Below, piece by piece: positions 26,086 to 51,508 of a stretch of DNA of 64,000 bases. How positions within the stretch are numbered: the stretch's first letter is position 1; every line of letters starts with the position of its first letter. The notes beneath the pieces were generated by a model. It saw nothing but the letters and a program-made list of their open reading frames with translations. It was not told where the DNA came from and searched no databases. Both the position numbers and the translations under genes were made by a program. Source of the DNA: Sphingorhabdus sp. Alg231-15 (GTDB taxonomy: Bacteria > Pseudomonadota > Alphaproteobacteria > Sphingomonadales > Sphingomonadaceae); assembly GCF_900149705.1 (NCBI RefSeq), contig NZ_LT703001.1, forward strand, positions 2,542,001 to 2,606,000. The letters are read 5' to 3'.

Positions 26086-26112
26086 TGATGCAATTCTTTC
26101 GATTGAGTGAGA

Positions 26113-27962: not shown

Positions 27963-27987
27963 ATATTGACACTATGTGTGTCATATT
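27963..27987. promoter_or_regulatory. TetR-type operator, site A
   Basis: TGACAC (27967-27972), 5-bp centre TATGT, GTGTCA (27978-27983): perfect 6-bp arms within AT-rich flanks. It lies between the divergent acyl-CoA synthetase and DJ-1/sulfatase operons and can control both. One of seven copies of TRRCAY-N5-RTGYYA in the cluster. Confidence 0.8.
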
Positions 27988-28028
27988 GGATTAGAAGGGT
28001 CAAGAGAATCCCAACCACAAGGCTCGCC

Positions 28029-28916
28029 ATGAAAAAGAAACTGCTCACTATCTTCGGCTTGTTAGCCCTGACCATCGTCATATTGGCAATGGCTGCTCCA
28101 TCGATCGTCCACGCGCTGGGCTTACATCCCGACTATGATGGACCGAGTTACAAGTTGCCTGGGAAAAAGGCGCTGATCATCGCAACCAATCACGGCGTGC
28201 TCAACAAGCCGGGTGAGACAACGGGCGATCCAACCGGAGTCATGGCATCGGAGTTTACCCATCCCTATTATGGATTTCTTGACGCCGGGATGGATGTCGA
28301 TATTGCCAGTATCAAGGGTGGTGTGATTCCCGTTGATCCGCAGACCCTCAGCCGGATGGCCATCACGCCGGAGGATAAACGCTATCTCGAAGACCCGGTT
28401 CTACGGGGCAAGATCAAGAACAGTATCAAGATTGATGACCTCGATTTCACGCAATATGACGCAATCTTCATATCGGGCGGCTGGGGCGCTGCTTATGATC
28501 TCGGCTATTCTGAAAAGCTGGGAGAGAAAATCAGCGATGCCTATTTTGCCAAGAGGCCAATTATCGGTTCGGTATGTCACGGCGCATTAGGCTTAATCAA
28601 CGCCAAGGATGAGGATGGAAAACCAATCATCGCTGGCAGAAAAGCTACGGGTGTCAGTGATAAACAGATCAAAGAACTGGGCGTAAGCATGACCCCGATG
28701 CATCCGGAAACGGAGCTTCGCAAAGCGGGTGCGCTCTATGAAAGCAGCACCGCCTTTCGCGACATGTTTGCAACCCATGTTGTGATCGATGACGAGAAAC
28801 GTTTTGTGACTGGGCAAAACCAGAATAGCGGCCATGTCACAGCCCATAAGATGATGGAGATTATTTCCAAACTGCCTGCCGCCCCGGCATCGAAAGATGA
28901 GGAAACTACAGAATGA
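28029..28916 (+). CDS. Membrane-anchored DJ-1/PfpI-family protein
   Basis: A 295-residue protein of the DJ-1/PfpI (class I glutamine-amidotransferase-like) superfamily. A single hydrophobic segment at residues 5-28 precedes the domain, so it is probably anchored and exposed to the periplasm. The nucleophile elbow GSVCHGALGL has C183 followed by H184; E75 in ASEFTHPY may complete the triad. ISGGWGAAYDL is the Hsp31-like oxyanion region. It could be a glyoxalase-like hydratase, chaperone or amidase. The GTG at 27939 lies upstream of operator A and is rejected; ATG 28029 is used. It overlaps the next gene by ATGA. Confidence 0.85.
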   Translation: MKKKLLTIFGLLALTIVILAMAAPSIVHALGLHPDYDGPSYKLPGKKALIIATNHGVLNKPGETTGDPTGVMASEFTHPYYGFLDAGMDVDIASIKGGVIPVDPQTLSRMAITPEDKRYLEDPVLRGKIKNSIKIDDLDFTQYDAIFISGGWGAAYDLGYSEKLGEKISDAYFAKRPIIGSVCHGALGLINAKDEDGKPIIAGRKATGVSDKQIKELGVSMTPMHPETELRKAGALYESSTAFRDMFATHVVIDDEKRFVTGQNQNSGHVTAHKMMEIISKLPAAPASKDEETTE

Positions 28917-29317
28917 AAAAGGCGCTGCGTACCGTACTTTGGGTGCTGACCGGACTGATTGCCCTCAATTTTCTCGTCATGGGCCTGCGGTGGGCAGTTG
29001 CGCCATCTGGTGCGGCGGAAGCCCTGAACATGTCCCTGTTCAACGGCGCGGCGCTTAGCAGCCAGATTGGCGATGTCGGTGGTTTGTTTCTTTGTATGGG
29101 ACTATTTGTCTTGTTTGGCATGGTCACGAAAAAGCGCGAGTGGTTCCTCGCCACATCGTTGCTGGTCTATGCGATCGCGATCTTCCGCATATTGGCCTGG
29201 CTGTTTCATGGCGCGTCTCTGGTGATACCGTTGATCGTGCCGGAAATTGTCATCGGCACCTTACTTTTGATTGCATCCAAAAAACTGACCGCTGATCAAT
29301 CGCAAAAGCCAGAATGA
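28913..29317 (+). CDS. Four-helix membrane protein (DUF4345-like)
   Basis: A 134-residue integral membrane protein with four predicted helices (VLWVLTGLIALNFLVMGLRW; GDVGGLFLCMGLFVLFGMV; FLATSLLVYAIAIFRILAWL; LVIPLIVPEIVIGTLLLIAS). The pattern resembles DUF4345; function unknown. It overlaps both neighbours by 4 bp, so it is translated together with the DJ-1 protein and sulfatase. Confidence 0.75.
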   Translation: MKKALRTVLWVLTGLIALNFLVMGLRWAVAPSGAAEALNMSLFNGAALSSQIGDVGGLFLCMGLFVLFGMVTKKREWFLATSLLVYAIAIFRILAWLFHGASLVIPLIVPEIVIGTLLLIASKKLTADQSQKPE

Positions 29318-31110
29318 AAAAGCGCACTTTCATTCTATTCCGCACCGCTCTCGCCAGTGTGCTTTTGATTGCTTTTAGCAATGCAGCCAGCGCCCAATCT
29401 TCCCGGCCCAATATTGTTTTCATCCTCGCCGATGATTTGGGTTTTACCGATACCGCGCCCTATGGCAGCGAGATCAACACGCCGACCATATCTGCGCTGG
29501 CGGCCAAGGGCTTGCGCTTTTCCAACTATCACACCGCAGGCAGCTGCGCGCCCTCGCGTGCGATGCTGCTGACCGGTGTGGATAGTCATCGGGCGGGGGT
29601 TCCGAATATCCCTGAAATGCTCCCGCCCGAGCAGACACAATACTCCCATTATCGCGGCGTTTTGGGCCGCAATGTCGTGACCATCGCGACGCTTTTGCAG
29701 GATCAGGGCTATCACACCTATATCGCCGGCAAATGGCATCTCGGGATGACGCCCGATTTGCTGCCCAGCGCGCGCGGCTTTGAGCGCAGCTTCATCATGG
29801 CCGATTCCGGCGCGGATAATTGGGAGCAGAAACCCTATCTGCCAATTTATAAGCAGGCCAACTGGTTCGCCGATGGCAAGCGGACCACGCTCCCCGATGA
29901 TTTCTATTCCTCGCGATTTCTGATCGACAAGACCATAGAATTTATCGATGAAAATGCGGGCGATGGCGCACCGTTTCTGGCCTATGTCCCATTTCAGGCG
30001 GTGCACTTGCCAGTGCAGGCGCCGCAGGAGTTTATTGACCGTTATATGGATACTTATGACGGCGGCTGGGATGAACTCAGGCGGCAGCGCTATCTGAGGG
30101 CGGTGGAACTTGGCTTGGTTCCCAAAAACAGCGCGATGGTTGATATGCAAACCACTGCGGATTGGGACAAGCTCACGCCAAAGCAGAAAAAATACCAGGC
30201 CAAACGCATGGCGGTCTATGCGGCGATGGTCGAGGCTATGGATTTTCACATCGGCCGTCTAATCGCGCATCTCAAAAGCATTGGTGAATATGAGAATACG
30301 ATATTTGTTTTCACCTCAGACAACGGTGCGGAACCCAGCGGTCCTGCCGACCCCGATACGGCGCTGACTCGATTTGCGCTTACGCGGCAGGACTATAAAA
30401 ATGACTATGAAACACTCGGCCTGAAAGGCAGTTTCAACAGCATCGGTCCCAGCTTCGCAAGCGCTGCCGCTTCGCCTTTGTCCTACTACAAATTCTATTC
30501 CGGCGAAGGCGGTATGCGCGTGCCGCTGATCATTGCCGGTGAGGTCCTGCCATCGCAATCTGCTATGACCAGTGCCTTCGCTTTTGCCACCGATATCGCG
30601 CCCACCATCCTCGAGCTGGCCGGTGCGGAGAAACCTCTGCCAAGATTTGGTGCCTTGCGTTATGGAGGCCGGGAAGTGGAGGCCATGACCGGGCGCAGCC
30701 TTGTCCCGCTGATCAACGGTGAACAAGACCGCATATACGAGCCGGATGAACCGATTGGCTATGAACTGGGCGGAAACAGTGCGCTGTTTCAAGGGGATTA
30801 CAAGATTGTCCTCAACCGGGGCCCGGTAGGCGATGGACAATGGTATCTCTACAACATTGTGGACGATCCCGGTGAAACGCGGGATCTGTCAAAAAGCGAG
30901 CCGAAGCGCTTTCAGAAAATGCTTAATGCCTATGTCCGGTACACGAAAGAAAATGGTGTGCTTCCTGTTCCAAAGGGCTTCAATGCGCAGCAGCAAGTCG
31001 CTCTCAACGGACTGCGCGAACAGGCGGGGCCTGCGATCCTGATCAGCATTCTCTTGTTACTGTTTGTATCGCCATTCGTCCTTTACGCACGCGCAAGACG
31101 CAAACAATGA
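29314..31110 (+). CDS. Exported FGly-type sulfatase, C-terminally anchored
   Basis: A 598-residue type I sulfatase hydrolysing a sulfate ester. Signal peptide to about residue 28 (LLIAFSNAASAQ), calcium ligands D40/D41 in ILADDLGF, and the formylglycine site CAPSR with C78 to be converted by an FGE. Further ligands: GKWHLG, FTSDNGAEP. A hydrophobic segment near the C-terminus (ILISILLLLFVSPFVLYA) followed by RARRKQ would tether it to the inner membrane with the active site in the periplasm. Arylsulfatase-like; substrate unknown. Third gene of the operon from operator A; a matching FGE is encoded at 40545-41471. Confidence 0.93.
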   Translation: MKKRTFILFRTALASVLLIAFSNAASAQSSRPNIVFILADDLGFTDTAPYGSEINTPTISALAAKGLRFSNYHTAGSCAPSRAMLLTGVDSHRAGVPNIPEMLPPEQTQYSHYRGVLGRNVVTIATLLQDQGYHTYIAGKWHLGMTPDLLPSARGFERSFIMADSGADNWEQKPYLPIYKQANWFADGKRTTLPDDFYSSRFLIDKTIEFIDENAGDGAPFLAYVPFQAVHLPVQAPQEFIDRYMDTYDGGWDELRRQRYLRAVELGLVPKNSAMVDMQTTADWDKLTPKQKKYQAKRMAVYAAMVEAMDFHIGRLIAHLKSIGEYENTIFVFTSDNGAEPSGPADPDTALTRFALTRQDYKNDYETLGLKGSFNSIGPSFASAAASPLSYYKFYSGEGGMRVPLIIAGEVLPSQSAMTSAFAFATDIAPTILELAGAEKPLPRFGALRYGGREVEAMTGRSLVPLINGEQDRIYEPDEPIGYELGGNSALFQGDYKIVLNRGPVGDGQWYLYNIVDDPGETRDLSKSEPKRFQKMLNAYVRYTKENGVLPVPKGFNAQQQVALNGLREQAGPAILISILLLLFVSPFVLYARARRKQ

Positions 31111-31128
31111 ACAACATGGGAACTTGAT

Positions 31129-31830
31129 ATGAAAAAATGGATGCTCCGCATTTCAGGCACTTTGCTGCTGCTCTTTCTGTTCCTGTTCTGGCTTGCTTTT
31201 TTCTCACCGAGGCCACCGCTTACAACTGATCCGGAAACATTGGCGGGGGACGGCAGCACCATCAACTATTGCGAAATGCCCGAACTCGATGGCAGCGGGA
31301 AAATGGCGGCGGACATCGCCAAAGGGAATACACCGGGCTGTGCCTATGATCATTTCCCGCTTCCCATATTGGCCGAATGTACCGAGCCCCTTGTCGAGGG
31401 TGCGGACGATATGCGCGGACTGTGGATTGGTACAGGTGGCGGCGAAAATGCCAAGATCGGCCATCTTGAGCGCGTCGAGCAATGCGGCGACCGGACGGTC
31501 ATAACCGCTGCCGGGATCATTCACGATGCTGGAACCAACAAGACCGGCGGGCTAAATTCCAACGATACCGAAGGCTCGGTGCTCTTTACCCTAGGTGGTA
31601 AAGAATATTGCAACCGCACCTCTGCCAGCATGAAATGGCGCGATGGCAAGCTGGATTTCAATGTCTTCGGATGGGGACCGGTCGTTGTGCGCCGCTACCT
31701 GGATGGCAAGCAACTGGTGTGGGAATATGCCGATGGTTCGGTGACAAAAATGAACCGGCTTTGCAAATTGCCAGAGGAACATAAAACTCCCAAGCCAAGA
31801 GGCCCGCGCTATTCGTTTTTTGGTGATTAG
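31129..31830 (+). CDS. Periplasmic-facing hypothetical protein with six cysteines
   Basis: A 233-residue protein not assigned to a family. An N-terminal hydrophobic anchor (TLLLLFLFLFWLAFFS) is followed by a soluble domain rich in Gly/Asp with six cysteines (YCE, GCA, ECT, QCG, YCN, LCK), suggesting disulfides in the periplasm. Segments such as MRGLWIGTGGG, DRTVITAAGIIHD and KQLVWEYADGSVTKM suggest a beta-rich, lipocalin-like fold, which is a weak inference. It follows the sulfatase after 18 bp in the same operon and converges on the GST gene. Confidence 0.7.
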   Translation: MKKWMLRISGTLLLLFLFLFWLAFFSPRPPLTTDPETLAGDGSTINYCEMPELDGSGKMAADIAKGNTPGCAYDHFPLPILAECTEPLVEGADDMRGLWIGTGGGENAKIGHLERVEQCGDRTVITAAGIIHDAGTNKTGGLNSNDTEGSVLFTLGGKEYCNRTSASMKWRDGKLDFNVFGWGPVVVRRYLDGKQLVWEYADGSVTKMNRLCKLPEEHKTPKPRGPRYSFFGD

Positions 31831-31839
31831 GTCTCTAGC

Positions 31840-32457
31840 CTAGGTTCCCATTGTAATCGCCTTGGCAAAGGCCGGTCTTTCAGTAATCCGCTGCACATAG
31901 GCCTTCAGGTTCGGCATATCATCGGTCACGCAGCCCAGGCGGTTGCTCATAAAAGCAGCATGGCCGAGCATGATATCCGCACCGGAGAAATTACCGATCA
32001 GATAATCCTTTCGTTCGAGGGCTTCGTCCACCGGTTTCCAAGCCTTGGTCAGCAGGCGCTTGGCCTGCTCACGCACGGTTTCGTCCTGTCGATCGGGCGG
32101 CAGCAATAATGTGTGAACCACGATGGTGTTGACCGGCGGCATCACCATGCCTTCGCAATAGTGAAACCATTGCAGGTAATAGGGGTAGTTCGGATCATCG
32201 ACCGCCGGTTTCAAACCTCCGTTTTTGTGGCGCTCGAGGATATATTCGACGATCGCACCGGACTCATAAATCGACACATCGCCATCCTCTAGCACCGGAA
32301 TACGCCCCAGCGGATGGCGACCGCGATGCTCATCCGATTTCAGATCCTTGGGATGAAAAGCCATGGCGTTAAGCTCATAGGGCAGTTCCAGCTCTTCAAG
32401 CAGCCAGCTGATCCGGCTGGCTCGGCTGTTCGGGGCGAAGTGCAGTTTGAGTGTCAT
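31840..32457 (-). CDS. Glutathione S-transferase, standard length
   Basis: A 205-residue canonical GST: N-terminal thioredoxin fold (LHFAPNSRASRISWLLEELE, with Ser in the catalytic Ser/Tyr region), LGRIPVLEDGDVSIYESGAI containing the cis-Pro and glutathione-binding Glu-Ser, and a helical C-terminal domain (YLIGNFSGADIMLG, the N-capping box). It is last in the leftward operon from operator B and is only 4 bp from the EF-hand gene. Presumed role: glutathione conjugation, dehalogenation or ether cleavage in the regulon's pathway. Confidence 0.92.
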   Translation of the reverse strand: MTLKLHFAPNSRASRISWLLEELELPYELNAMAFHPKDLKSDEHRGRHPLGRIPVLEDGDVSIYESGAIVEYILERHKNGGLKPAVDDPNYPYYLQWFHYCEGMVMPPVNTIVVHTLLLPPDRQDETVREQAKRLLTKAWKPVDEALERKDYLIGNFSGADIMLGHAAFMSNRLGCVTDDMPNLKAYVQRITERPAFAKAITMGT

Positions 32458-32461
32458 GATA

Positions 32462-32764
32462 TTATTTCCCTTGTGAAGCGGCGAGTTCTTTTGGAGTTAC
32501 AAGGCCATCCTTGTTCGCGTCTACTCTTCCAAAGGCTGTGTCATAGGTGCCGAAGCGTTTGATCATCGACGCCCTGCCAATATCGTCGGCCGCATTGGCA
32601 TCGATGAATTTTCGAAACTCGGACTTTGTCAGCTGGCCGTCTTTATCGCCATCGGCCTGACTGAAATTTTCCTGGGCGGCTTTGCTGTCTGCGGCGGCGT
32701 TTAGGGCGAGAGCCGGAGCTGCCATGGCCAGGGTAGAAATTGACACTAGAATTGAAAGACGCAT
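32462..32764 (-). CDS. Exported small EF-hand protein
   Basis: About 100 residues starting MRLSILVSISTLAMAAPALA, a clear signal peptide; the ATG at 32764 has AGGAGAG 5 nt upstream and is preferred over a frame start at 32800. Two EF-hand loops are visible: DGDKDGQLTKSE and DANKDGLVTPKE, each with Asp/Asn at positions 1, 3, 5 and Glu at 12. It should bind calcium in the periplasm. As the regulon's sulfatases are calcium enzymes, a role in calcium supply is an attractive guess only. Confidence 0.85.
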   Translation of the reverse strand: MRLSILVSISTLAMAAPALALNAAADSKAAQENFSQADGDKDGQLTKSEFRKFIDANAADDIGRASMIKRFGTYDTAFGRVDANKDGLVTPKELAASQGK

Positions 32765-32789
32765 AGCTACTCTCCTTTGTTGGACATGA

Positions 32790-33875
32790 TTAGATCGCAA
32801 TCATGATTCCGCGGCTTGGTGAAACATTGTTGTCAAGCATCTCCCTCCAGATCGCGGCGACTTCACTCGCACCCGATATCCTCTCGACCGCAATCTGGTC
32901 CGACACCGATTTGGCAATTTCGGCGCCGGCCTCAGAACCGCGTCGCCATATCTCGCCTGCACCCCATTCGGCATCGCGCTTGGCAATGTGTCCAGGGGCA
33001 AAGAAGAAGGTGGGCAAAGCACCCGGCAAGTTCTTGTCGCGTTTGCGCTCCGCCTCCCAGTGAGTAGCGCCGACGATACAGCTTTCAACCATGTTGTCGC
33101 CCATCAGTCGATGCAGTTCACCGGTGAGCGGGCCGTCGCCTGACATATCGATCCACGCTGATGGAAGGCTCCTGTCGATATCGTCTGCCTCGCCATAGGT
33201 CACAATCTGGTCGCAACAGCCCAGGTTTTCGACAAAGCCCACATTGCCGGACGATGTTAGACCCACAACTTTCTGGCTCACCTCTGGATCATTCTTGAGC
33301 AGGTGGGTTAGACCGAAGCCGGTCTTCGATGATACCGAACCGATAATGATCTGCTGCGCGCCGAAGAATGCGTTGTCGATCAGGTAATCGTAGAGAACAA
33401 AGGATGTGACGAAGAGCGGGAACAGAAGACAACGCTCATTTTCGAGGGATTGCAGAAATTCCGGTTCGCTCCGCGTCCGGCGATACTGATTGTAGAGCGC
33501 AGGAAGCTCGGCGCGGTGCGGCGCCTCGTCCATGAAGAAATCATCTGCCGTGCGACCGGGTTCCAGGATCACCTCGCTGGCCATCGGGAAGAAACCATAT
33601 AGCCGTTCGCCTTCAGAAATGGCGTCGCTGCGTGATTCGACCACGTCCGCCATCGCCCAGCCGGGGACTTTGCCCCATGCGCCTTCGGCCGGAAAATATT
33701 TCCAATATCCGATCGCGTCACCAGAAACGGCATAGCTGACGTTATTCGCGGTCAGCCCCATCTTGTCGATGGCAACGCGGATCTGGCCGTTTTCAAGGGG
33801 TTTTTGGTCGCTTTCGACAATCCTTGTTTCGCGCAATTTGTCGCGGGTTACCCATAATTCAGTGACTTTAGTCAT
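32790..33875 (-). CDS. DUF2855 family protein (MDR-like fold)
   Basis: A 361-residue protein matching DUF2855 in pattern: LTANNVSYAVSGDAIGYWKY near the N-terminus and a degenerate nucleotide-binding segment QQIIIGSVSSKTGFGLTHLL in the middle. The family is distantly related to quinone-oxidoreductase-type MDR enzymes and has no established reaction. It is packed 1 bp from the dehalogenase-like gene and next to a true MDR reductase, so it probably acts on the same compound. Confidence 0.85.
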   Translation of the reverse strand: MTKVTELWVTRDKLRETRIVESDQKPLENGQIRVAIDKMGLTANNVSYAVSGDAIGYWKYFPAEGAWGKVPGWAMADVVESRSDAISEGERLYGFFPMASEVILEPGRTADDFFMDEAPHRAELPALYNQYRRTRSEPEFLQSLENERCLLFPLFVTSFVLYDYLIDNAFFGAQQIIIGSVSSKTGFGLTHLLKNDPEVSQKVVGLTSSGNVGFVENLGCCDQIVTYGEADDIDRSLPSAWIDMSGDGPLTGELHRLMGDNMVESCIVGATHWEAERKRDKNLPGALPTFFFAPGHIAKRDAEWGAGEIWRRGSEAGAEIAKSVSDQIAVERISGASEVAAIWREMLDNNVSPSRGIMIAI

Positions 33876-33876
33876 A

Positions 33877-34821
33877 TCACCCGGTCTCCACTGATTTGAG
33901 GAAATTCAAGGCCTCGGCGGTATATTCTTGTGGCACATCCTCAAGCAGGAAATGGGACCCATCCTTGAGGATGACTGGTTCATGGTTCCGGGTTCCCGGA
34001 ATGATTGGTCGCACACTATTGAAGCCCTGTGGGGCAACCTGGTCTTTGTCAGAGAAAAGATTGAGGAATGGCTTTTCAAGGTTTTTGAGCCTTTGCAATG
34101 CCTGCCAGTTTTCCGTCAAAATGGGATTGTCGTTGCGAGTTGGCAGCATCTGGGTGAACTGGCGGTTCCCGGTTAGATATCTTTTGTCGGGATATGGTGC
34201 TGCAAACCCTGCCACATCTGCATCGGGCATTTCGGACAGCACTAGCTTGCGCAGCGTTTTCCAATGTTCCCAGTTCTTCCGGAACCGAATATAGAGCTGA
34301 AAGCCCCGCAGCATCTTTGCGCCCTTACGTGCCATTTGTGTGATAGCCTCATCCGGGTCGCGTACAGGAAAGCCGGTGTTCGACATGATAACGCTGGCAA
34401 TTCGGTCCTGATTATCGGCAATCGCGCGCAGACCGATAATCCCCCCCCAGTCATGCAGGATAAAATGGGCATTCTCCAAGTCGAGCTTTTCGAAGAGCGC
34501 TTCCTTCACCCATGCTTCGTGACGAGCGATTGTGTAGTCCCTCATCCTGGCCGGCTTGTCCGATCGCCCCATGCCGATCAGATCGATGGCAATGGCGCGG
34601 TATCCGTTCTCGGCGAGCACCGGGATCAGCTTACGCCACATATAGGACCATGTCGGATTGCCATGGATCATCACAACTGGCTGCCCATCGCGTGGCCCCT
34701 CATCGACATAAGCCAAACGCAGGGTGCTGCCTTCAAAATCCGATACATCCACGTAGTTCGCGGCGAACGGGTAGTCTGCCAGATTTTCAAAACACTCGTC
34801 TGGTGTGCGTAGAAACTCCAT
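33877..34821 (-). CDS. Haloalkane-dehalogenase-type alpha/beta hydrolase (copy 1)
   Basis: A 314-residue hydrolase of the haloalkane dehalogenase/epoxide hydrolase group. Nucleophile D124 followed by W125 in LHDWGGIIGL is placed exactly as in DhlA; the oxyanion segment is HGNPTWSYMWRK (N55 in the halide-binding position), acid Asp in FSDKDQVA and base His in KDGSHFLLEDVP. Halide release is plausible; epoxide hydrolase cannot be excluded without checking the cap residues. No signal peptide, so cytosolic. It lies between DUF2855 and the MDR reductase in the operon from operator B, and resembles the hydrolase at 39490-40482. Confidence 0.88.
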   Translation of the reverse strand: MEFLRTPDECFENLADYPFAANYVDVSDFEGSTLRLAYVDEGPRDGQPVVMIHGNPTWSYMWRKLIPVLAENGYRAIAIDLIGMGRSDKPARMRDYTIARHEAWVKEALFEKLDLENAHFILHDWGGIIGLRAIADNQDRIASVIMSNTGFPVRDPDEAITQMARKGAKMLRGFQLYIRFRKNWEHWKTLRKLVLSEMPDADVAGFAAPYPDKRYLTGNRQFTQMLPTRNDNPILTENWQALQRLKNLEKPFLNLFSDKDQVAPQGFNSVRPIIPGTRNHEPVILKDGSHFLLEDVPQEYTAEALNFLKSVETG

Positions 34822-34826
34822 ATCCG

Positions 34827-35834
34827 TTACCCTAGTTTAAGCAGCAATTTGCCGTGGTTTTTGCCATCAAAGATCATATCGAAGGCATTCGGAAAGTTTT
34901 CTATTCCCTCCACGATATGCTCACGAAATTTGATCCGACGCTCTTTCCATGCCGGAACAAGCCAATCGAGCGCTTCCGGAACGCGGTGCATATAGTCACG
35001 CATTGTAAAGCCGCGCATGGAGAGGCTGTGGGTTACAACAGTCATGAAGTTGGCCGGGCCGGCTGCGCTCGCGAAATCGCCATATTGAGAAATGCCGCCG
35101 CACACGACAATTCGGCCCTGATAATTCATCTGGTTCAATACAGCACTCAGAATGTCACCACCAACATTGTCAAAATAGAGGTCGATGCCGTCCGGGCAAT
35201 TTGCGTTTAGCGCGGCACTGATATCCCCCTTTTTGTAATCAATTGCAGCGTCCAGACCCAGTTCATCAATCAGATAGCTGCATTTGTCCGGACCACCGGC
35301 AATGCCGACAACCCGTGCACCGGCCAGCTTGGCTATCTGGGCTGCAATACTGCCAACAGCACCTGATGCCGCAGATACTACCACCGTTTCGCCCTCTTTG
35401 GGTTGACCGATATCTGTCATGCCAAAATACCCGGTGTAGCCAGTCATGCCGAGACCAGAGAGAAATGTATGCGGAGGAACGCCGGGAATTCCGACCTTCC
35501 GCAAGTTCTCCTGTTTGAAAACACCATGCGTCTGTACACCGGTGAATCCTGTAACCTGATCGCCCACAGCAAGTCCTGTCGCCCGAGATTCGACTATCTC
35601 ACCCACACCAAAGGCGCGCATGACGCCGCCCGGTTTTACTGGTGGCATATAGCTGCGCTTGTTGGTGATCCAGCCACGCATGCCTGGATCAATGGAAATA
35701 TAGTCGAGCCGAACCAACACTTCCCCATCTTCAACGGGGCGAAGGGAATCATGGGTGACTCGCCAAATATCGCGTGCATTCCCGGTAGCTGGATAGTCTG
35801 ACATCCGGATTTGTACTGGCTTTTTGTCTGTCAT
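34827..35834 (-). CDS. NADP-dependent MDR oxidoreductase (CurA/prostaglandin-reductase-like)
   Basis: A 335-residue zinc-independent medium-chain reductase that probably reduces an alpha,beta-unsaturated carbonyl with NADPH. N-terminal YISIDPGMRGWI and SYMPPVKPGG are typical of the leukotriene B4 dehydrogenase/CurA branch; the NADP site is VVSAASGAVGSIAAQIAK. I use the ATG at 35834; the ATG at 35858 is in frame but abuts operator B1. First gene of the leftward operon MDR - hydrolase - DUF2855 - EF-hand - GST. Confidence 0.9.
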   Translation of the reverse strand: MTDKKPVQIRMSDYPATGNARDIWRVTHDSLRPVEDGEVLVRLDYISIDPGMRGWITNKRSYMPPVKPGGVMRAFGVGEIVESRATGLAVGDQVTGFTGVQTHGVFKQENLRKVGIPGVPPHTFLSGLGMTGYTGYFGMTDIGQPKEGETVVVSAASGAVGSIAAQIAKLAGARVVGIAGGPDKCSYLIDELGLDAAIDYKKGDISAALNANCPDGIDLYFDNVGGDILSAVLNQMNYQGRIVVCGGISQYGDFASAAGPANFMTVVTHSLSMRGFTMRDYMHRVPEALDWLVPAWKERRIKFREHIVEGIENFPNAFDMIFDGKNHGKLLLKLG

Positions 35835-35861
35835 TCCGTTAGTCCGCGGCCTATTCATATA

Positions 35862-35880
35862 TTGACACTATTAATGCTAT
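35862..35880. promoter_or_regulatory. TetR-type operator, site B1
   Basis: TGACAC (35863-35868), centre TATTA, ATGCTA (35874-35879). The right arm is degenerate but keeps the RTGYYA form. It sits at the start of the leftward MDR operon; site B2 serves the rightward operon about 52 bp (five turns) away. Confidence 0.65.
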
Positions 35881-35912
35881 AATAGCCGAAATTCCGCATA
35901 TGGCAATTTCTT

Positions 35913-35935
35913 AATGACATTTATAGTGTCATATT
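35913..35935. promoter_or_regulatory. TetR-type operator, site B2
   Basis: TGACAT (35915-35920), centre TTATA, GTGTCA (35926-35931), followed by TATTATAAT that could serve as a -10 element for the rightward MBL-fold operon. A strong copy of the shared palindrome. Confidence 0.78.
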
Positions 35936-35977
35936 ATAATTTCATCCGTCATTGCCGTCCGAGGTTGGAGAAATTCC

Positions 35978-37048
35978 ATGTTTAGAAAGATAAGTCTGGT
36001 TTTCGGTATTCTCATGCTCGTCGCGGTTGCATCTGTTTTCCTGTTCCAGAAACAAATCGGGCTGAGCCTGTTTCAGCGCGGACTGGATGCACGTATCGGC
36101 ACGGACAATCTGGCCGGACTGGAAGATGGTCTGCATGTCGGTCTGTGCGGTACCGGGTCACCGTTGCCCAATCCGGATCGCGCCGGGCCTTGTAATATCG
36201 TGATTGCGGGTGACCAGATGTTTATCGTGGATATCGGCGAAGGCGGCGCTCGCAATCTTAATCTGATGGCGATTCCAGCTCCCGACGTGGAGGGCGTGTT
36301 GCTTACCCATTTCCATTCCGATCATATTGACGGCATGGGGCCGTTGATGCTGGCCTACTGGGTTCAGGGTGCATCGACGGCACCTCTTCCAGTACATGGC
36401 CCGACGGGTGTTGAAGCAATTGTGGAAGGCTTCAACGCTGCCTACACAACCGATAACAGCTACCGCACCGCTCATCATGGTGAGAAAATTGCTCCATCAA
36501 CAGGCGGCGGCGTGGAAGCGCGTCCTTTTGAGATGACCGGCAGTACCGTGGTTATACTGGAAAAGAGCGGTCTCAAAATCACCGCTTTCAAGGTTGATCA
36601 TGATCCGGTCGCACCCGCCGTCGGTTATCGGTTTGACTATAAAGATCGTTCTGTCTGCATCAGCGGGGACACAGCCAAATCTGATAATCTGGAACGCGTC
36701 TGCAAAGGAGTTGATCTGTTGGTCCATGAAGCGCTGGCGTCTCATATGGTCAAGCAGATGACGGGAGCATTGGAAAAGCGTGGATTGGAAAATGCTGCAA
36801 TCATAACAAAGGACATATTGGACTACCATGCTACACCCGCTGAGGCGGCGGAATCAGCGCAGGCGGCGGGCGTGAAACAGCTGGTACTCAGCCATTTGGT
36901 CCCTCCCCTGCCAAGCGCTTATCTCTATCCCGCCTTTCTGGCAGATGCGCCGGAGAAATTTGACGGAGAAATTACCGTTGGTGAAGATCGTATGCTGTTC
37001 AGCCTGCCAGCAAACAAAACCAATATCGAACAGACACAGCTGAAATAG
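35978..37048 (+). CDS. MBL-fold metallohydrolase (RNase Z/arylsulfatase-like), membrane-anchored
   Basis: A 356-residue metallo-beta-lactamase-fold protein. A hydrophobic N-terminal segment (residues 7-24) indicates export or anchoring. The metal motif HFHSDHIDG gives H111, H113, D115 and H116; later ligands are probably in ISGDTA and LSHLV. The closest recognisable style is RNase Z/AtsA-type hydrolases, some of which cut alkyl or aryl sulfates and lactones; for an exported protein tRNA processing is unlikely. It is first in the rightward operon from operator B2, 9 bp before a GST gene. Confidence 0.87.
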   Translation: MFRKISLVFGILMLVAVASVFLFQKQIGLSLFQRGLDARIGTDNLAGLEDGLHVGLCGTGSPLPNPDRAGPCNIVIAGDQMFIVDIGEGGARNLNLMAIPAPDVEGVLLTHFHSDHIDGMGPLMLAYWVQGASTAPLPVHGPTGVEAIVEGFNAAYTTDNSYRTAHHGEKIAPSTGGGVEARPFEMTGSTVVILEKSGLKITAFKVDHDPVAPAVGYRFDYKDRSVCISGDTAKSDNLERVCKGVDLLVHEALASHMVKQMTGALEKRGLENAAIITKDILDYHATPAEAAESAQAAGVKQLVLSHLVPPLPSAYLYPAFLADAPEKFDGEITVGEDRMLFSLPANKTNIEQTQLK

Positions 37049-37057
37049 GATACGGAC

Positions 37058-38050
37058 ATGTACACAATTCACGGCGCACTCGGTTCTCCTTATTCGATGA
37101 AAATGCGGGCGTTGATGCGCTATCGCCGGATCACGCATGCCTGGAGCCATGGCAGTCACGTGCAGCAATTGGCGGCGGAGAAATCGCTCCCACCGGTCAT
37201 TCCGGTTATCGAATATCCCGATGGCAGCTTCAAAAATGACAGCACGCCCGTGCTTTATGATCTGGAAGAGCGCCACAAGGAACGCGGCGTTGTGCCACCC
37301 GATCCTGCACAGGCGTTTATTGCACATTTGCTGGAGGATTTTGGCGATGAGTGGTTGACCAAAGCGATGTTTGGCTATCGCTGGCTAGAGGAAGTGGACC
37401 AAATCCAGATGAGCCGCTGGCTATCCTTTGACGCTTTGAAAGGCGGCAATTTGAAAACGAGCCAAAGCATGGCAAAGATTTTCCGCGAGCGGCAGGTAGG
37501 CCGGATGGGAATGGTCGGCTGTACGCGCGAAAATTTCCCGTTGATCGAAGACTCCACCCGCAGGGTTATGAAGGCGCTCGAAGACCATGTGGTGAACGAA
37601 CATTACCTGTTTGGTTCGCGGCCTTCTTTGGCCGAAATCAGCATTTATGGACAGTTTTCCCAATTGGGTGTCGATCCGACAGCGCAAGCGATGATGCGCG
37701 CCGATTTTCCCTATACATTTCGTTGGTTACTCCATGTCGATGATATGTCGGGGATCGAGGGTGAATGGGATGATGCCAATGCACCGATCAAACCCGTCGC
37801 CTTAAAACTGTTGGCAGAGTTTGGCCGTGTCTATGTGCCGTTCCTTCTTGCCAATGAGGCAGCGATGGAAGCAGGCGAAGAAACGTTCAGCATGGAGGTT
37901 GACGGGCTTCCTTACTCACAAGGCACATTCAAATATCAGCTCAAATGCCTGAGAGAATTGCGTTATCGATACAGCAAGCTGGACGCCGATGCGCGGGCGA
38001 AGGTTGATCCGATATTGGATGAAAATAACTATTTGGAATTCTTGCAATGA
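37058..38050 (+). CDS. Glutathione S-transferase family protein, long form (paralogue)
   Basis: A 330-residue GST-like protein: thioredoxin-fold N-terminus (IHGALGSPYSMKMRALMRYR, PPVIPVIEYPDG, STPVLYDLEERH), then a long helical domain containing DEWLTKAMFGYRW and EHYLFGSRPSLAEISIYGQF. It resembles the 380-residue protein at 24943-26085 in length and motif order, so the two probably arose by duplication and serve one pathway. Its stop overlaps the next gene by ATGA. Confidence 0.85.
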   Translation: MYTIHGALGSPYSMKMRALMRYRRITHAWSHGSHVQQLAAEKSLPPVIPVIEYPDGSFKNDSTPVLYDLEERHKERGVVPPDPAQAFIAHLLEDFGDEWLTKAMFGYRWLEEVDQIQMSRWLSFDALKGGNLKTSQSMAKIFRERQVGRMGMVGCTRENFPLIEDSTRRVMKALEDHVVNEHYLFGSRPSLAEISIYGQFSQLGVDPTAQAMMRADFPYTFRWLLHVDDMSGIEGEWDDANAPIKPVALKLLAEFGRVYVPFLLANEAAMEAGEETFSMEVDGLPYSQGTFKYQLKCLRELRYRYSKLDADARAKVDPILDENNYLEFLQ

Positions 38051-38562
38051 TGCGGCTTCAATCAACTCAGCTGCTCAAGATTTTTCTTGCATTCCTGATG
38101 TTAACAATCGCTTCCATGGGCACGACCGCCACTGCAAAGGCAGAGCAGATAGCGAATGACGCACGCGATGCAGTAATCATGCGAGTGTTGGACAAGTTCA
38201 TGGATGGCTTGAACGAACTTGACCTTCAGAAGCATTTTGAGACCTATCACTTTCCGCATTTCCGTTATGCCAGTGGTACAATCAATATCTCTGAAAATGC
38301 CGAAGAGGCCATGCCATTCCTCAAATTATCGAAGGAACAGCAACGGCAAAATCTGTTAAAATTTCTTGGTCCCGAATGGGATCACAGCGCGTGGACTAGG
38401 CGCGATATTGTACAGGGAGATGAGTCCAAGGTTCATGTTGCCACCACCTTTGTGCGATTCCGTAAGGATGGCTCAAAGATCCAGGCTTATGAGTCTCTCT
38501 ATGTCATTGTTTTTGAAAATGGTCGTTGGGGCATCAAAGGCCGGTCGAGTTTCGCGCCTTGA
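38047..38562 (+). CDS. Exported NTF2-like protein
   Basis: A 171-residue protein with a signal peptide (to about residue 34, ending in TATAKA) followed by an NTF2/SnoaL-like cone domain: VLDKFMDGLNELDLQKHFET, a middle region and the closing strands HVATTFVRFRKDGSKIQAYE and YVIVFENGRWGIKGRSSFA. Members of this fold are either ligand-binding proteins or isomerase/dehydratase-like enzymes; which applies is unknown. Coupled to the GST gene upstream by a 4-bp overlap. Confidence 0.78.
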   Translation: MMRLQSTQLLKIFLAFLMLTIASMGTTATAKAEQIANDARDAVIMRVLDKFMDGLNELDLQKHFETYHFPHFRYASGTINISENAEEAMPFLKLSKEQQRQNLLKFLGPEWDHSAWTRRDIVQGDESKVHVATTFVRFRKDGSKIQAYESLYVIVFENGRWGIKGRSSFAP

Positions 38563-38598
38563 CACGAACATCATACGTATTGGTTCGGATCGATTATC

Positions 38599-39069
38599 AT
38601 GAGTAACAGTTTTACTGCCCGCCTCTTCCCGGCGCAATTCGACAATGTTTTTCGCGGACAGAAAATCGCCCTTTGGGTTTTCTATCCGTTCACCGCAATC
38701 ACCCTGTGGCGCAGCCAGCATCATATGCTTGCCGCCGATGGCGGCGCGCAGAGTATTGCGACTATTCCGCTCGACAATTATTCTGATGGAGCAACCGCCA
38801 CGATCATCGCCATTTTTGCGCAATGGGGCCTGATCCAGTTATTGCTGGGCATGCTGATGTTGCTGGCGGCTGTCCGTTATAAATCCATGGTGCCACTCTT
38901 GTGGCTGATTGTGCTTATGGAATGGATTGGGCGCGGATTGATCGGCCAGTTCAAACCAGTCGAAACTCTCGGCACTGCACCGGGCCAGATTGGCAATCTT
39001 GTCCTACCATTTGTCGCGTTGATGATGCTGGTTTTGGCGCTTTGGCCGGGAAAAAATGCCGAGAGCTAG
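38599..39069 (+). CDS. Four-helix membrane protein, hypothetical
   Basis: A 156-residue membrane protein with about four helices (QKIALWVFYPFTAITLW; TIIAIFAQWGLIQLLLGMLM; MVPLLWLIVLMEWIGRGLI; NLVLPFVALMMLVLALW). No catalytic motif is visible; it is comparable in size and topology to the DUF4345-like protein at 28913-29317. Last gene of the rightward operon; its stop overlaps the stop of the convergent DUF1330 gene by 4 bp. Confidence 0.72.
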   Translation: MSNSFTARLFPAQFDNVFRGQKIALWVFYPFTAITLWRSQHHMLAADGGAQSIATIPLDNYSDGATATIIAIFAQWGLIQLLLGMLMLLAAVRYKSMVPLLWLIVLMEWIGRGLIGQFKPVETLGTAPGQIGNLVLPFVALMMLVLALWPGKNAES

Positions 39070-39479
39070 AGAGATCCTGGCTTAGTCTTGATATTCAGCT
39101 GACCTTCAAGGCCCGCTACGCGGTGAACCGCAATCTTCTGATATTCGGGCGACATGATCATGGTCTTCATAGCTTCCAGCGACGGATATTCTGCCAGCGC
39201 AACCATATCCCAATTTTCCTCAACCTCGCCCAGCATCAATCCGGTGACCGGTCCGCTATAACGCGGCTTTGCACCAACGGCCGCAAGGCGTTCCACCACA
39301 GCAGCTCCATATAGAGCATAGGCTTCTGCCCCGCTAAGATCGGTGTCGCGGCCATCGGCATATTCAGCTTTGTCCTTGAATTTGAGCAGGTTGACCATGA
39401 CGAACGCACCATCTTCTTCACCGCCGAAAAATTCCTGCATAAGTTCTGGCGAGGGGTTGACCTGATTGAAAACTTTCAT
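39066..39479 (-). CDS. DUF1330 family protein
   Basis: A 137-residue cytosolic protein with the dimeric alpha/beta-barrel DUF1330 pattern: FVMVNLLKFKDKAEY near the start, GAKPRYSGPVTGLMLG, WDMVALAEYPSLEAMKTM and a final MSPEYQKIAVHRVAGLEGQL. The reaction is unknown; relatives include small isomerase-like and monooxygenase-like domains. It follows the second haloalkane-dehalogenase-type gene by 10 bp, in the operon from operator C. Confidence 0.88.
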   Translation of the reverse strand: MKVFNQVNPSPELMQEFFGGEEDGAFVMVNLLKFKDKAEYADGRDTDLSGAEAYALYGAAVVERLAAVGAKPRYSGPVTGLMLGEVEENWDMVALAEYPSLEAMKTMIMSPEYQKIAVHRVAGLEGQLNIKTKPGSL

Positions 39480-40544: not shown

Positions 40545-41471
40545 TCAGCTTTGTGGCGCCGGCTTTTCATTGTCCACCAACCGGAATCCGATATGATTGG
40601 TGCCTAGCCCTCGCTCCTGAAACTGCCGTGCAGAGGGGCGATAGCGGGCGCAATAATTGGCGGCGCAAAGGAAGGATCCGCCTTTGATTACTTTCACACC
40701 TTCACTGGCATCGGCGCGCACGCCGTCTCCACTGGTCCATTCCCAGACATTACCCAGCATATCGTAGAGCCCGTAGCCATTGGGCTTGAAGCATCCCACT
40801 GGCGCGCGCGTTGTGAACCCATCTTCACCCAGATCCCTGGCCGGAAAAACACCCTGATAATAGTTCGCCTGCGGTGCTCCATTAGCATCTTTGGGTTCTG
40901 CGCGTGCAGCTTCGCCGCCGCGCGCAGCATATTCCCATTGCTCTTCGCTGGGCAGCTTCTTGCCCGCCCAATTGGCATAGGCTTGTGCATCGTCATAGGC
41001 GATCTGTACTACTGGCACCTGGTCTTTGCCGGTGATATTCTTATCTGATCCCGAAGGATTGCGCCACTGCGCCCCGGTTTCCCAGCGCCACCAGCGCGGA
41101 TCATCATCGCTTGGCACATTGAATACAGCGGAACCCGGCACCAGCATTTCCGGTGGCGCGCCTTTTAACTTCGGGGGATCGCGTTCAGCTAGCGTCTTGT
41201 AGCCCGTTTCCTTCGCAAAGGCCGCGAATTCGGCATTGGTGACTTCGTGACTATCCATCCAGAAGCCATCCACACGGATTTCGCGCGGCGGGCCTTCTTC
41301 ACGGTAACGCGGATTTTCTCCCATGGTAAAACTGCCGCCAGGAACCCAGATCATCTTGTTAGTGATCAGGCCCTGACATTGGCTGACTTCGACCGCTTCC
41401 GTGGACTGATCATCTTCCGCGGCACCGCAACCGACAATCAGAAACGTTACCACCGCTATCCAGCAACGCAT
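40545..41471 (-). CDS. Formylglycine-generating enzyme (SUMF1 family), lipoprotein
   Basis: A 308-residue FGE-sulfatase domain protein oxidising the sulfatase-site cysteine to formylglycine. It has the opening ITNKMIWVPGGSFTMG, DGFWMDSHEVTNAEFAAF, LPSEEQWEYAARGG, GNVWEWTSG and, decisively, the catalytic cysteine pair C269 and C274 in LCAANYCARYR (CxxxxC as in FGE). The N-terminus has lipobox LIVGC, so it should be exported and anchored, unlike usual cytosolic bacterial FGEs. It is last in the operon from operator D, after the TetR gene (3 bp apart), in the same transcript as a sulfatase. Confidence 0.92.
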   Translation of the reverse strand: MRCWIAVVTFLIVGCGAAEDDQSTEAVEVSQCQGLITNKMIWVPGGSFTMGENPRYREEGPPREIRVDGFWMDSHEVTNAEFAAFAKETGYKTLAERDPPKLKGAPPEMLVPGSAVFNVPSDDDPRWWRWETGAQWRNPSGSDKNITGKDQVPVVQIAYDDAQAYANWAGKKLPSEEQWEYAARGGEAARAEPKDANGAPQANYYQGVFPARDLGEDGFTTRAPVGCFKPNGYGLYDMLGNVWEWTSGDGVRADASEGVKVIKGGSFLCAANYCARYRPSARQFQERGLGTNHIGFRLVDNEKPAPQS

Positions 41472-41474
41472 GAC

Positions 41475-42098
41475 TCAATCGTCAATCTGCGCAGCAAGAT
41501 CACTGACCATTTGCGACATGGTGGCAATAACCCGCTTGTTGCTGAGCCCTTCATCCTGACGAAAAAGCCGCCAGCTATCAAAGCTAGTCGCGAGCAATAT
41601 CGCGTGACTGCGTTGCTTGTCTTTCTGAACAAATTTGGGCAGAATCCTGTTTAAAGAATCCTTCTCAAATTTCAGCAATCGCTTGTAATTTGACATTAAT
41701 AATTCCGAGCGAAACCGGGCTATTGAGGTCATGATCCGGTGGGTATAAGTGGCCTCGTTCACTTTCGCGCGGCGCGCGATCAATTCGATCAATTGTTCCT
41801 GCCAATCGCCCGACTTATAAGGCGCGGTCAGAAAAGACCCCCATTTTGCGTTCAAAATGCCATCAATCTCTGCATATAGTGAGTCCATGTCGTCAAAATG
41901 GCGAAAGACCGACCGCAATCCAACACCCGCACGTTTTGCAACCCTCGCAGCACTGGGCGATGGATCGCCAGACTCAATCAATTCCATGAAAGCTTTGACG
42001 ATTTTTGCGCGGCTCGCCTGGCTGCGTTGACGGCGGCCATCGGGATGGGGTTTTTCATGCTCTGTTTGCATCTTCTTCGATGTGGTTTGCTTTGCCAT
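41475..42098 (-). CDS. TetR family regulator of the catabolic cluster
   Basis: A 207-residue TetR-type repressor. After a basic tail of about 25 residues, the HTH lies at 30-75 (AKIVKAFMELIESGD, ARVAKRAGVGLRSVFRHFDD). The ligand domain is not family-specific. It is the only regulator between 24.9 and 48.7 kb, and seven copies of one palindrome occupy the promoter regions of this cluster, so it probably binds them and is itself controlled by site D as part of the sulfatase operon. The inducer would be the substrate or a metabolite (inference). Confidence 0.92.
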   Translation of the reverse strand: MAKQTTSKKMQTEHEKPHPDGRRQRSQASRAKIVKAFMELIESGDPSPSAARVAKRAGVGLRSVFRHFDDMDSLYAEIDGILNAKWGSFLTAPYKSGDWQEQLIELIARRAKVNEATYTHRIMTSIARFRSELLMSNYKRLLKFEKDSLNRILPKFVQKDKQRSHAILLATSFDSWRLFRQDEGLSNKRVIATMSQMVSDLAAQIDD

Positions 42099-44183: not shown

Positions 44184-45854
44184 CTAATTCTGCCAGTAGA
44201 TAATTTCGTCGCCATCCTGATATTCTTCAGCCAGCGATTTATCGATCATTACCGGCATCGATGTTGCGGCGGGATATAGCAATTTACGATCTTTCAAATG
44301 CTTCACCAGCAATCCTTGTAAGCGCTTGGCCACAGCCGGTTCCTGTTTGATCAGATTTTTCTGTTCGGTGGGATCATCTGCCAGATTGAACAGCCATTTT
44401 TTGCCCTGCCTTTGGTCGGTCTGGAATTTCCAGTCTCCTGCTCGCACCGCCTGATATTTCCCGCTTTGCCAGAAAATCGCATTATCCGGCCTGTCGATAG
44501 GGCCGGTACCGCGCGCTATCGGAAGCAAATTTACGCCGTCAATCTCACGGTCCGGTAGAGACACGCCGGTCGCGGCCGCAATGGTCGTGAAAAGATCAAT
44601 ATGTGTCACGGGTTTTGATATTTCGCGCCCGCTGGGCAAACCTGCTGGCCAGCGGATCATCATCGGCACGCGCACTCCGCCTTCAAACAAAGACAGTTTC
44701 CAACCGCGATAGGGCGCGTTTACTTCAGGCAACCCGATATAGCCTGCTCCGCCATTGTCGCTGGTAAAAATCACTATTGTATTGTCCGCTAACCCTTCGG
44801 CCTCGAGCTTGTCGAGCACTTGCCCTACACTGCGGTCAAGCGCCCGGATCATCGCCGCATAGACGCGCAAACGATGCGGCTTGATATCGCCAACCGCTTC
44901 GTAATCGGCACGCGTCGCTTGAAGCGGGGTATGCGGGGCCCAGTGGCCCATATAGAGAAAGAATGGCCGGTTACGGTTTGCCTCAATGGCCTCAAGCGAT
45001 TCTTGCGTCCACCAATCGGTTAGATACCCTCCAGGCTGGAACAATTCGGAGCGATTGAATGAACCTGCAAAACGCTGCGAGGCCCAAAGGAAGCGATCGA
45101 TAGGGTCAAATTCGACCTTGGCATTGACGACATCAGGGCTATCCTCGGGCAAATAAAGCCCCTCGTTCATGAGCAAGCTTTCATCGAAACCTTGCGATCT
45201 AGCATCTAGTTTTTCGCTGCTTCCCATATGCCATTTGCCGATATGGATGCTGTGATAACCCTTGTTTTTCAGCATTTCTGCGACGGTAATTTCTTCAGAT
45301 GGCAGCCCCTGTTCTTCGTAAGACGGGCGCTGGGCCGCTGCATCGGCATCAAGACTTCCGGAAGGCATATCCGGTCGGATGTCACCGGAAACCGAATTGA
45401 CCACGCGCCCCATGCTGGCCGGCGTAGGTGTAAATTCAAATCCGGTATGTGTCGGATACCGCCCGGTCATCAACATCCCGCGTGACGGCGAGCAAGTCGC
45501 GTTACCAGCATAGCCTTGCGTAAAATTCACACCTTCCTTGGCAATACGGTCGATATTAGGCGTTGGCACCAGACCGCCCGCTACGCCGCCGCCATAAAGA
45601 GATATATCATTTATGCCAAGATCATCGGCAAGGATCAGGACAACATTGGGAGGCCTTTGATCGGCTGCCACGGCAGCGATATTCGGCCCTTGCTGCCAGT
45701 TAATGCTCGGCGTTTGGGTATTTATCTCTGGCTGGTCACGGTTCTTGACGCCCCAAAGGATCAAATCAGTTCGAAAAATATAGGCAAGCCCTGCGACCAT
45801 GGCCAGAACCAGAACAATGCTGCCCGTTATTTTCTGCCAGCGCTTCATAACCAT
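44184..45854 (-). CDS. Membrane-anchored FGly-type sulfatase
   Basis: A 556-residue type I sulfatase. An uncleaved-looking N-terminal helix (ITGSIVLVLAMVAGLAYIF) anchors it with the catalytic domain in the periplasm. Metal ligands D77/D78 (LILADDLGIN), formylglycine site CSPSRGMLMTG with C121, GKWHMGS, FTSDNGGAG. Sequence style matches arylsulfatase A/N-acetylgalactosamine-6-sulfatase-like bacterial enzymes; substrate unknown. First gene of the leftward operon sulfatase - DUF1330-like - DsbA-like - TetR - FGE from operator D, which links it directly to its activating enzyme. Confidence 0.93.
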   Translation of the reverse strand: MVMKRWQKITGSIVLVLAMVAGLAYIFRTDLILWGVKNRDQPEINTQTPSINWQQGPNIAAVAADQRPPNVVLILADDLGINDISLYGGGVAGGLVPTPNIDRIAKEGVNFTQGYAGNATCSPSRGMLMTGRYPTHTGFEFTPTPASMGRVVNSVSGDIRPDMPSGSLDADAAAQRPSYEEQGLPSEEITVAEMLKNKGYHSIHIGKWHMGSSEKLDARSQGFDESLLMNEGLYLPEDSPDVVNAKVEFDPIDRFLWASQRFAGSFNRSELFQPGGYLTDWWTQESLEAIEANRNRPFFLYMGHWAPHTPLQATRADYEAVGDIKPHRLRVYAAMIRALDRSVGQVLDKLEAEGLADNTIVIFTSDNGGAGYIGLPEVNAPYRGWKLSLFEGGVRVPMMIRWPAGLPSGREISKPVTHIDLFTTIAAATGVSLPDREIDGVNLLPIARGTGPIDRPDNAIFWQSGKYQAVRAGDWKFQTDQRQGKKWLFNLADDPTEQKNLIKQEPAVAKRLQGLLVKHLKDRKLLYPAATSMPVMIDKSLAEEYQDGDEIIYWQN

Positions 45855-50191: not shown

Positions 50192-51508
50192 TTAGTTTGG
50201 CGGGGAACTGCGCAGATCATCGAACTTGGCATCAAGCCCGACATGAACGGCCTGTTTGCCCGTCATGGATTGCCAGCGCTTTATCGCGACGTCGCAGTAA
50301 TGCGGATCCAGTTCAATTGCCCGGCAGTGACGTCCGGTTTGTTCTGCGGCGATAATAGTCGTCCCAGAGCCTGAAAAGGCATCCAGGATGATGCCGCCAC
50401 GCTTGGAACAATCAAGGATTGCATCGGCAACAAGCTGCGTTGGTTTGACGGTTGGATGCATCGCCAGTTCTTCATCGCGGCCTTCCTTGAGGGAGTTTAT
50501 GCCGGCATAGTCCCAGACATTGGTCCGGTAGCGCCCGTGCTGTCCCAGCTCAAAATTGTTGATATGCTTGGCCGAACCGCTCTTGAACGCGAAGATTAAC
50601 TCGTGCTTGGACCGGTAGAATGAGCCCATCCCGCCATTATCTTTGTTCCAGACAATGAGGTTTTTGAGTTCAGTGTAGTGCGAGCCTCCGGCCGCCAGGA
50701 TTTCGCTCATATGACGCCAGTCCATGCAGATATAATGAATGGACCCATCATCACTATGTTTTGCCAGCTGCTTGAAACAGTTTTTTAGAAAGCCGGTAAA
50801 TTCTTCGGATGTCATCTCGCCAGAAGCCATTGCGAATTCATTATGTTTGATCTTGCCAAGACCACACACATGACCGCCGACAGGAACATTGTACGGTGGA
50901 TCAGTGAAGATCATTTGCGCAGTATCACCGGCCATAAGTGAGATGTAAGTTTGTTCCAGCAACGAATCGCCGCAAATCAGTCGGTGATTTCCAAGTTGCC
51001 AAATATCGCCCGACTTGGTGACTGCAGGAACGGTAGGATCAACATCCGGCACAGCATCTTCAGGTTCAACGGCTTCGAGCGGTTCCAGTATTTTGGTCAC
51101 CTCGGCATCGCTGAAGCCGATGCTGTCCGGATCAAAGTCCGGTTCCAGGTCCAAAATGCCTTCAAGCTCCAGTTTGAGCAGATCATCATCCCAGTCAGCC
51201 AATTCTGCGAGGCGGTTGTCGGCAATGATATAGGCCTTGCGATCTGCTTCACTAAGGCCGGTGATACAGGCGGTCGGAACGTCAGATATGTCCAACTTTT
51301 TTGCGGCGGCGATCCTACCATGGCCAGCGATGACGTTGTTATGTTCATCGACCAAGACCGGATTGGTGAAGCCAAATTGTTTGATGCTTTTGGCAATCTG
51401 GTCAATTTGTTTAGCGGAATGTTTGCGGGCATTGCCAGCATAGGGTTTGAGATCAGACAGTTTTTGACTGATGATTTTTTCGGCAAGTCGCCTTGTAAAG
51501 TGGTTCAT
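50192..51508 (-). CDS. ParB-like domain fused to DNA methyltransferase
   Basis: A 438-residue fusion. Residues 12-110 form a ParB/Srx-type domain (LKPYAGNARKHSAKQIDQIA, NNVIAGHGRIAAAKKLD). Residues 170-438 are a beta-class N6-adenine/N4-cytosine methyltransferase with the catalytic DPPY at 203-206 preceding the SAM-binding FSGSG at 378-382. This architecture is frequent in prophages and mobile elements, modifying DNA without a tight restriction partner. ATG 51508 is preceded by GGAGG. A PD-(D/E)XK-like gene nearby could be a partner, but that is unproven. Confidence 0.92.
   Translation of the reverse strand: MNHFTRRLAEKIISQKLSDLKPYAGNARKHSAKQIDQIAKSIKQFGFTNPVLVDEHNNVIAGHGRIAAAKKLDISDVPTACITGLSEADRKAYIIADNRLAELADWDDDLLKLELEGILDLEPDFDPDSIGFSDAEVTKILEPLEAVEPEDAVPDVDPTVPAVTKSGDIWQLGNHRLICGDSLLEQTYISLMAGDTAQMIFTDPPYNVPVGGHVCGLGKIKHNEFAMASGEMTSEEFTGFLKNCFKQLAKHSDDGSIHYICMDWRHMSEILAAGGSHYTELKNLIVWNKDNGGMGSFYRSKHELIFAFKSGSAKHINNFELGQHGRYRTNVWDYAGINSLKEGRDEELAMHPTVKPTQLVADAILDCSKRGGIILDAFSGSGTTIIAAEQTGRHCRAIELDPHYCDVAIKRWQSMTGKQAVHVGLDAKFDDLRSSPPN

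Follow-up and report, generated by a model that had tools for sequence, protein, structure and literature searches.

A formylglycine-generating enzyme with a predicted lipoprotein signal in Sphingorhabdus sp. Alg231-15 belongs to a large clade of apparently exported bacterial enzymes and is likely to mature sulfatases in the periplasm

Prokaryotic formylglycine-generating enzyme (FGE) is described as residing in the cytosol (Holder et al, 2015; PMC4505483). The window analysed here, a stretch of 64,000 nucleotides from Sphingorhabdus sp. Alg231-15, encodes an FGE that begins like a lipoprotein, and it raises the question of whether the sulfatases encoded in the same window are matured before they leave the cytosol or after they have crossed the inner membrane. 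The gene and the residues on which the argument turns are the following.

40545..41471, minus strand: predicted exported FGE, 308 aa, ATG start (PF03781, 241 bits; model against human FGE, Z 34.4).
41430..41471, minus strand: predicted lipoprotein signal peptide, residues 1-14 (MRCWIAVVTFLIVG), satisfying the PS51257 rule.
41427..41429, minus strand: C15, predicted lipidated cysteine of the lipobox LIVGC.
41376..41378, minus strand: C32, between signal and core, putative disulfide partner of C227 (co-occurrence; model order from residue 31).
40791..40793, minus strand: C227 (APVGCF), putative disulfide partner of C32 (cysteine in 80/94 exported and 0/50 cytosolic FGEs).
40665..40667, minus strand: C269, copper-ligand cysteine by alignment (human C336).
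40650..40652, minus strand: C274, copper-ligand cysteine by alignment (human C341).

The open reading frame matches a single Pfam family, PF03781 (FGE-sulfatase), with residues 38-299 covering positions 3-254 of the 255 in the profile. Its cysteines are residues 3, 15, 32, 227, 269 and 274. The last two form the CxxxxC arrangement of the motif GGS-x-x-C-x4-C and are invariant in the FGE alignment; they line up with the human copper ligands, bearing out the original prediction that both catalytic cysteines are kept. The surrounding motif GGSFLCxxxYCxRYRPxAR is retained, and GGSFLCAANYCARYRPSAR aligns with the corresponding human motif. A search of the PDB returned the human, T. curvata and S. 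coelicolor FGEs with E-values near 1e-50. In structure alignments the AlphaFold model (pLDDT 85.9; ordered, with pLDDT above 50, from residue 31 on) matched human FGE with an rmsd of 2.1 Å over 249 residues, and the T. curvata and S. coelicolor enzymes with Z 33.1 and 32.1, respectively; scores were lower for proteins that use the fold for other ends, namely PvdO (Z 24.8), PorK (Z 24.7) and EgtB (Z 22.4). Assignment to these families was rejected, as the frame scored 86 bits for EgtB (TIGR03440; cut-off 360), 104 bits for PorK/GldK (TIGR03525; cut-off 350) and far under the NCBIfam cut-off for PvdO. Judged by its fold and by both copper ligands, the protein is a genuine aerobic copper FGE, with catalysis predicted.

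The N-terminus was read with the PROSITE lipoprotein rule PS51257, which the lipobox MRCWIAVVTFLIVG|C15 satisfies. When the first 40 residues were shuffled the rule was passed by chance in 0.9% of cases, and in 0.15% with random residues of the same composition; among the 50 open reading frames of at least 200 aa in the window, it was passed by the FGE and by one other protein, a GH16-like enzyme. Of 27 close sphingomonad relatives, 26 carry a lipobox that conforms to the rule; in the remaining one (L018), a hydrophobic stretch is followed by VSAC. The lipobox that had been proposed at the start of the protein is thus found throughout almost the whole group of close relatives, and export from the cytosol is predicted with near certainty.

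Candidate substrates and a candidate operon partner are encoded nearby.

29314..31110, plus strand: sulfatase 1, 598 aa, with a cleavable-type Sec signal, a C-terminal membrane segment and C78 in CAPSR (PF00884, 196 bits).
44184..45854, minus strand: sulfatase 2, 556 aa, with an N-terminal membrane anchor and C121 in CSPSR (PF00884, 192 bits).
41475..42098, minus strand: TetR-type regulator (PF00440), probable operon partner of the FGE.

Both of the Sec-exported or anchored sulfatases with which the enzyme was said to be encoded are therefore present, each with its signal or anchor, and each has exactly one cysteine, C78 or C121, which is the residue to be modified. Three nucleotides separate the TetR stop codon from the start of the FGE (TGA gtc ATG). 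Of the 14 named sphingomonad loci, 13 have a TetR match just upstream of the FGE, and all have a homologue of the N-anchored sulfatase within 6 kb of the FGE gene. In 13 of 15 genomes, which hold two or three Cys-type sulfatase genes in approximately 3 Mb, such a gene is found no more than 10 kb from the FGE, and the FGE-linked sulfatases bear Sec-type signals or anchors.

With just one cysteine, a sulfatase in the periplasm has no internal partner that could tie up this residue in a disulfide, and exported Cys-type sulfatases in genomes with an exported FGE have a single cysteine in 27 of 27 cases. It is compatible evidence at most, because 17 of 27 sulfatases in genomes with a cytosolic FGE share the trait. 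The same 17/27 weakens the idea that single-cysteine sulfatases are specific to exported FGEs, and the sulfatases represent few related families.

Other genes of the window were read alongside. A DsbA-like thioredoxin domain protein (PF01323; 42171-43532, minus strand) is encoded in the gap that separates sulfatase 2 from the FGE and TetR genes; it is conserved in L040 and L043, is of the isomerase type by reading and has no obvious signal. Around and between the sulfatases (24943-39479) are three GST-like proteins, an AMP-binding ligase, a DUF2855 protein, an ADH-type oxidoreductase, alpha/beta hydrolases and a metallo-beta-lactamase-fold protein, a set that suggests catabolism of a sulfated, lipophilic compound. 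The stretch 13065-24052, with an FAD-dependent halogenase-like protein, a TonB receptor, a GH16-like lipoprotein, a LacI regulator, an MFS transporter and a GH3-like enzyme, is likely by reading to be a beta-glucan utilisation cluster. A large serine recombinase-like protein (10224-11831, minus strand) and a ParB/DNA-methylase-like protein (50192-51508, minus strand) are possible mobile-element remnants near the island.

The reading would have been undone by a second, cytosolic FGE that accounts for sulfatase activity, and such an enzyme was looked for throughout the genome (G000; 3.62 Mb, 99.99% complete), which holds one FGE. The only other PF03781 protein was rejected as a cytosolic FGE; it is EgtB (TIGR03440, 520 bits), and its gene adjoins one for a methyltransferase resembling EgtD. 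For the anaerobic maturase anSME (TIGR03942), the best match in the genome scored 21 bits (cut-off 349), and none of the 15 sphingomonad genomes with an exported-clade FGE had a TIGR03942 match over the cut-off. In four genomes (G138, G193, G168 and G182) the exported FGE is the single match to PF03781, and TIGR03942 gives no match. Since the E. coli system that converts sulfatase cysteines is still unidentified (PMC6189696), the absence of another maturase here extends to the known kinds only.

That E. coli system also lends something to an alternative in which the FGE is exported and oxidises cysteines, but either acts chiefly on something other than the two sulfatases or serves as a back-up for sulfatase molecules that a cytosolic system has left unmodified. 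This alternative is likewise favoured by cytosolic Cys-type sulfatase-like proteins in genomes where the exported FGE is the only one identified: G138 and G193 encode signal-less choline-sulfatase-like proteins with CAPAR (L176 and L177), G043 encodes a similar one with CGPAR (L180), and no cytosolic FGE was identified alongside them. These proteins may be unmodified or matured otherwise, and low sulfatase activity without formylglycine has been documented (PMC6189696). Against the alternative, the TetR-FGE-sulfatase neighbourhood is conserved, sulfatase genes lie close to the FGE in most of the genomes, as given above, and no other exported CxPxR-type target was noticed in an unsystematic reading. 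We therefore regard a different principal substrate as unlikely, and sulfatases as the probable clients of the enzyme.

CxxxxC FGEs were then gathered across the family and the class and from named genomes, and classed as exported or cytosolic by a simple hydrophobic-segment rule; like the PS51257 assignments, these calls are sequence rules. Three cut or frameshifted copies were removed and two misses (L055 and L191) were corrected by eye. Of the resulting 144 proteins, 94 look exported and 50 cytosolic, a ratio that is not a census as sampling was centred on the Alg231-15 enzyme. The apparently exported proteins span Alpha-, Beta- and Gammaproteobacteria and Bacteroidota, with hosts that include Alphaproteobacteria, Acinetobacter, Azohydromonas, Algoriphagus, Dyadobacter and Flavobacteriaceae; an orthologue of the Alg231-15 enzyme is missing from the two genomes of its genus that were sampled. 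The exported proteins comprise lipoproteins, proteins with signal-peptidase-I-like signals and proteins with N-terminal membrane segments. Because other members have an N-terminal membrane segment or a signal without a lipobox, it is export that appears to be conserved and not one sequence.

In an unrooted tree of 137 rows, 84 of 85 exported rows fall into one 85-row clade with moderate support (SH-aLRT 88). The sole row of this clade labelled cytosolic, L055, is a miscall that has a signal peptide on inspection, and the one exported row outside it is long-branched and acidobacterial. Human FGE groups with the T. curvata and S. coelicolor enzymes, apart from the exported clade. Thus, by sequence the Alg231-15 FGE is no singular oddity: it falls within a large clade of bacterial FGEs predicted to be exported. 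The group is apparently unremarked: we found no exported or periplasmic catalytic bacterial FGE described in the open-access literature, and annotated plasmid records call the relatives only "formylglycine-generating enzyme family protein".

Most of the exported FGEs carry an extra pair of cysteines. Among the 94 exported FGEs, 80 have both a cysteine in the N-terminal extension and the cysteine at position 227, 12 have neither, two have the N-terminal one only and none has C227 only, and C227 is a cysteine in none of the 50 cytosolic FGEs; these counts come from related sequences, whose independence a Fisher test overstates. All rows with the pair lie in a subclade with SH-aLRT 95, and across the tree the C227 trait needs four changes and the export label three. 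In the Filomicrobium protein L055, the N-terminal cysteine is kept, serine occupies the position of C227 and a cysteine stands near the C-terminus, possibly as a swapped disulfide partner. From the co-occurrence, and from the order of the model from residue 31 on, C32 and C227 probably form a structural disulfide. As this is the likeliest meaning of the pair, it points to an oxidising compartment.

The relatives outside the clade bear on a different part of the argument. In 16 genomes of the same family that have only a cytosolic FGE, 61 of 77 Cys-type sulfatases bear signals (43 with a Sec signal or anchor, 18 Tat-like); one sulfatase with a Tat-like signal was also seen in G075. An exported FGE is therefore not needed to mature exported sulfatases, and both routes exist. 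A simple rule by which exported FGEs occur where sulfatases are exported and cytosolic FGEs where they are not was accordingly rejected, and the reading of this locus was amended: the exported FGE stands, but the export of sulfatases does not require it.

That exported sulfatases in sister genera are served by cytosolic FGEs could also mean that the leader has been misread or is ineffective here, and that the working enzyme is cytosolic, starting for example at the internal M40, and matures sulfatases before export. All characterised bacterial FGEs have been treated as cytosolic (PMC4505483), and a methionine does stand just before the FGE core (NKMIWVPGG), where cytosolic FGEs begin. However, Met40 is the sole plausible downstream start and is absent from Sphingopyxis relatives. 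Compared with L040 (88% identical), the leader has four nucleotide differences, of which three are synonymous third-position changes and one is nonsynonymous, while residues 16-38 are loose, with eight nonsynonymous differences and one synonymous, and still keep C32. The lipobox shared by all but one of the close relatives, the lipobox-free signals or N-terminal membrane segments used by other exported members, and the C32/C227 pair, which fits an oxidising compartment, likewise speak against a cytosolic enzyme, and we consider it very unlikely.

Maturation in the periplasm, after Sec translocation and by the exported FGE, is in our view likely for the sulfatases of this locus. The original prediction that the sulfatase cysteine is oxidised after translocation draws support from the intact FGE fold and copper site, the conserved lipobox, the absence of a second FGE and of an anSME match over the cut-off, the linkage to exported single-cysteine sulfatases and a cysteine pair confined to exported FGEs. 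From these features we infer where the enzyme is located, that it has the disulfide and acquires its copper in the periplasm, that the sulfatases are its substrates and when the reaction takes place. According to the model, the FGE would be made with a lipoprotein signal, cross the inner membrane unfolded via Sec, be lipidated at C15 and fold in the periplasm, where a C32-C227 disulfide would pin its N-terminal extension to the core and C269 and C274 would bind Cu(I). It would then capture C78 and C121 as the sulfatases emerge from Sec, before they fold, and with O2 would oxidise the captured cysteine to formylglycine.

Several known systems can be compared with this one. The enzymes of S. coelicolor (2q17) and T. 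curvata (6s07) have the same fold and copper-ligand pair, and presumably carry out the same reaction, but they are cytosolic, lack the signal, the lipobox and the C32-C227 pair, and lie outside the exported clade. Human FGE/SUMF1 (1y1e), which also shares the fold (Z 34) and the copper ligands, acts outside the cytosol on newly translocated sulfatases and possesses structural disulfides as well as a cysteine-containing N-terminal extension (PMC4505483); it differs in being a eukaryotic enzyme of the ER, with disulfides C218-C365 and C235-C346. Because human FGE groups with the T. curvata and S. coelicolor enzymes, the two exported forms look convergent. The maturase anSME/AtsB (TIGR03942) also makes formylglycine in sulfatases, but is a radical SAM enzyme. 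PorK/GldK, PvdO and EgtB share the PF03781 fold, and PorK/GldK are lipoproteins as well; although the FGE fold does occur in lipoproteins that do not catalyse (PMC12421860), it is most unlikely that the Alg231-15 protein is a repurposed structural lipoprotein of this kind, since it keeps both copper ligands and the motif around them, PorK lacks the cysteines, and the model is far closer to true FGE (Z 34) than to PorK (Z 25).

The Alg231-15 enzyme thus extends a known enzyme kind by an exported clade. It is likely that this whole bacterial clade, in Proteobacteria and Bacteroidota, works outside the cytosol, maturing Sec-translocated sulfatases with periplasmic copper and, in Proteobacteria, a disulfide of its own, having been exported independently of the ER enzyme. 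Such a clade would be a bacterial counterpart of ER sulfatase maturation and would tie the process to Sec translocation and to copper and oxygen in the periplasm; for many environmental bacteria, it would change the compartment to which sulfatase maturation is assigned. It suggests exported FGEs for aldehyde-tagging secreted proteins in the periplasm, and it makes an old question testable: whether conversion of the sulfatase cysteine is obligatory before translocation or possible after it.
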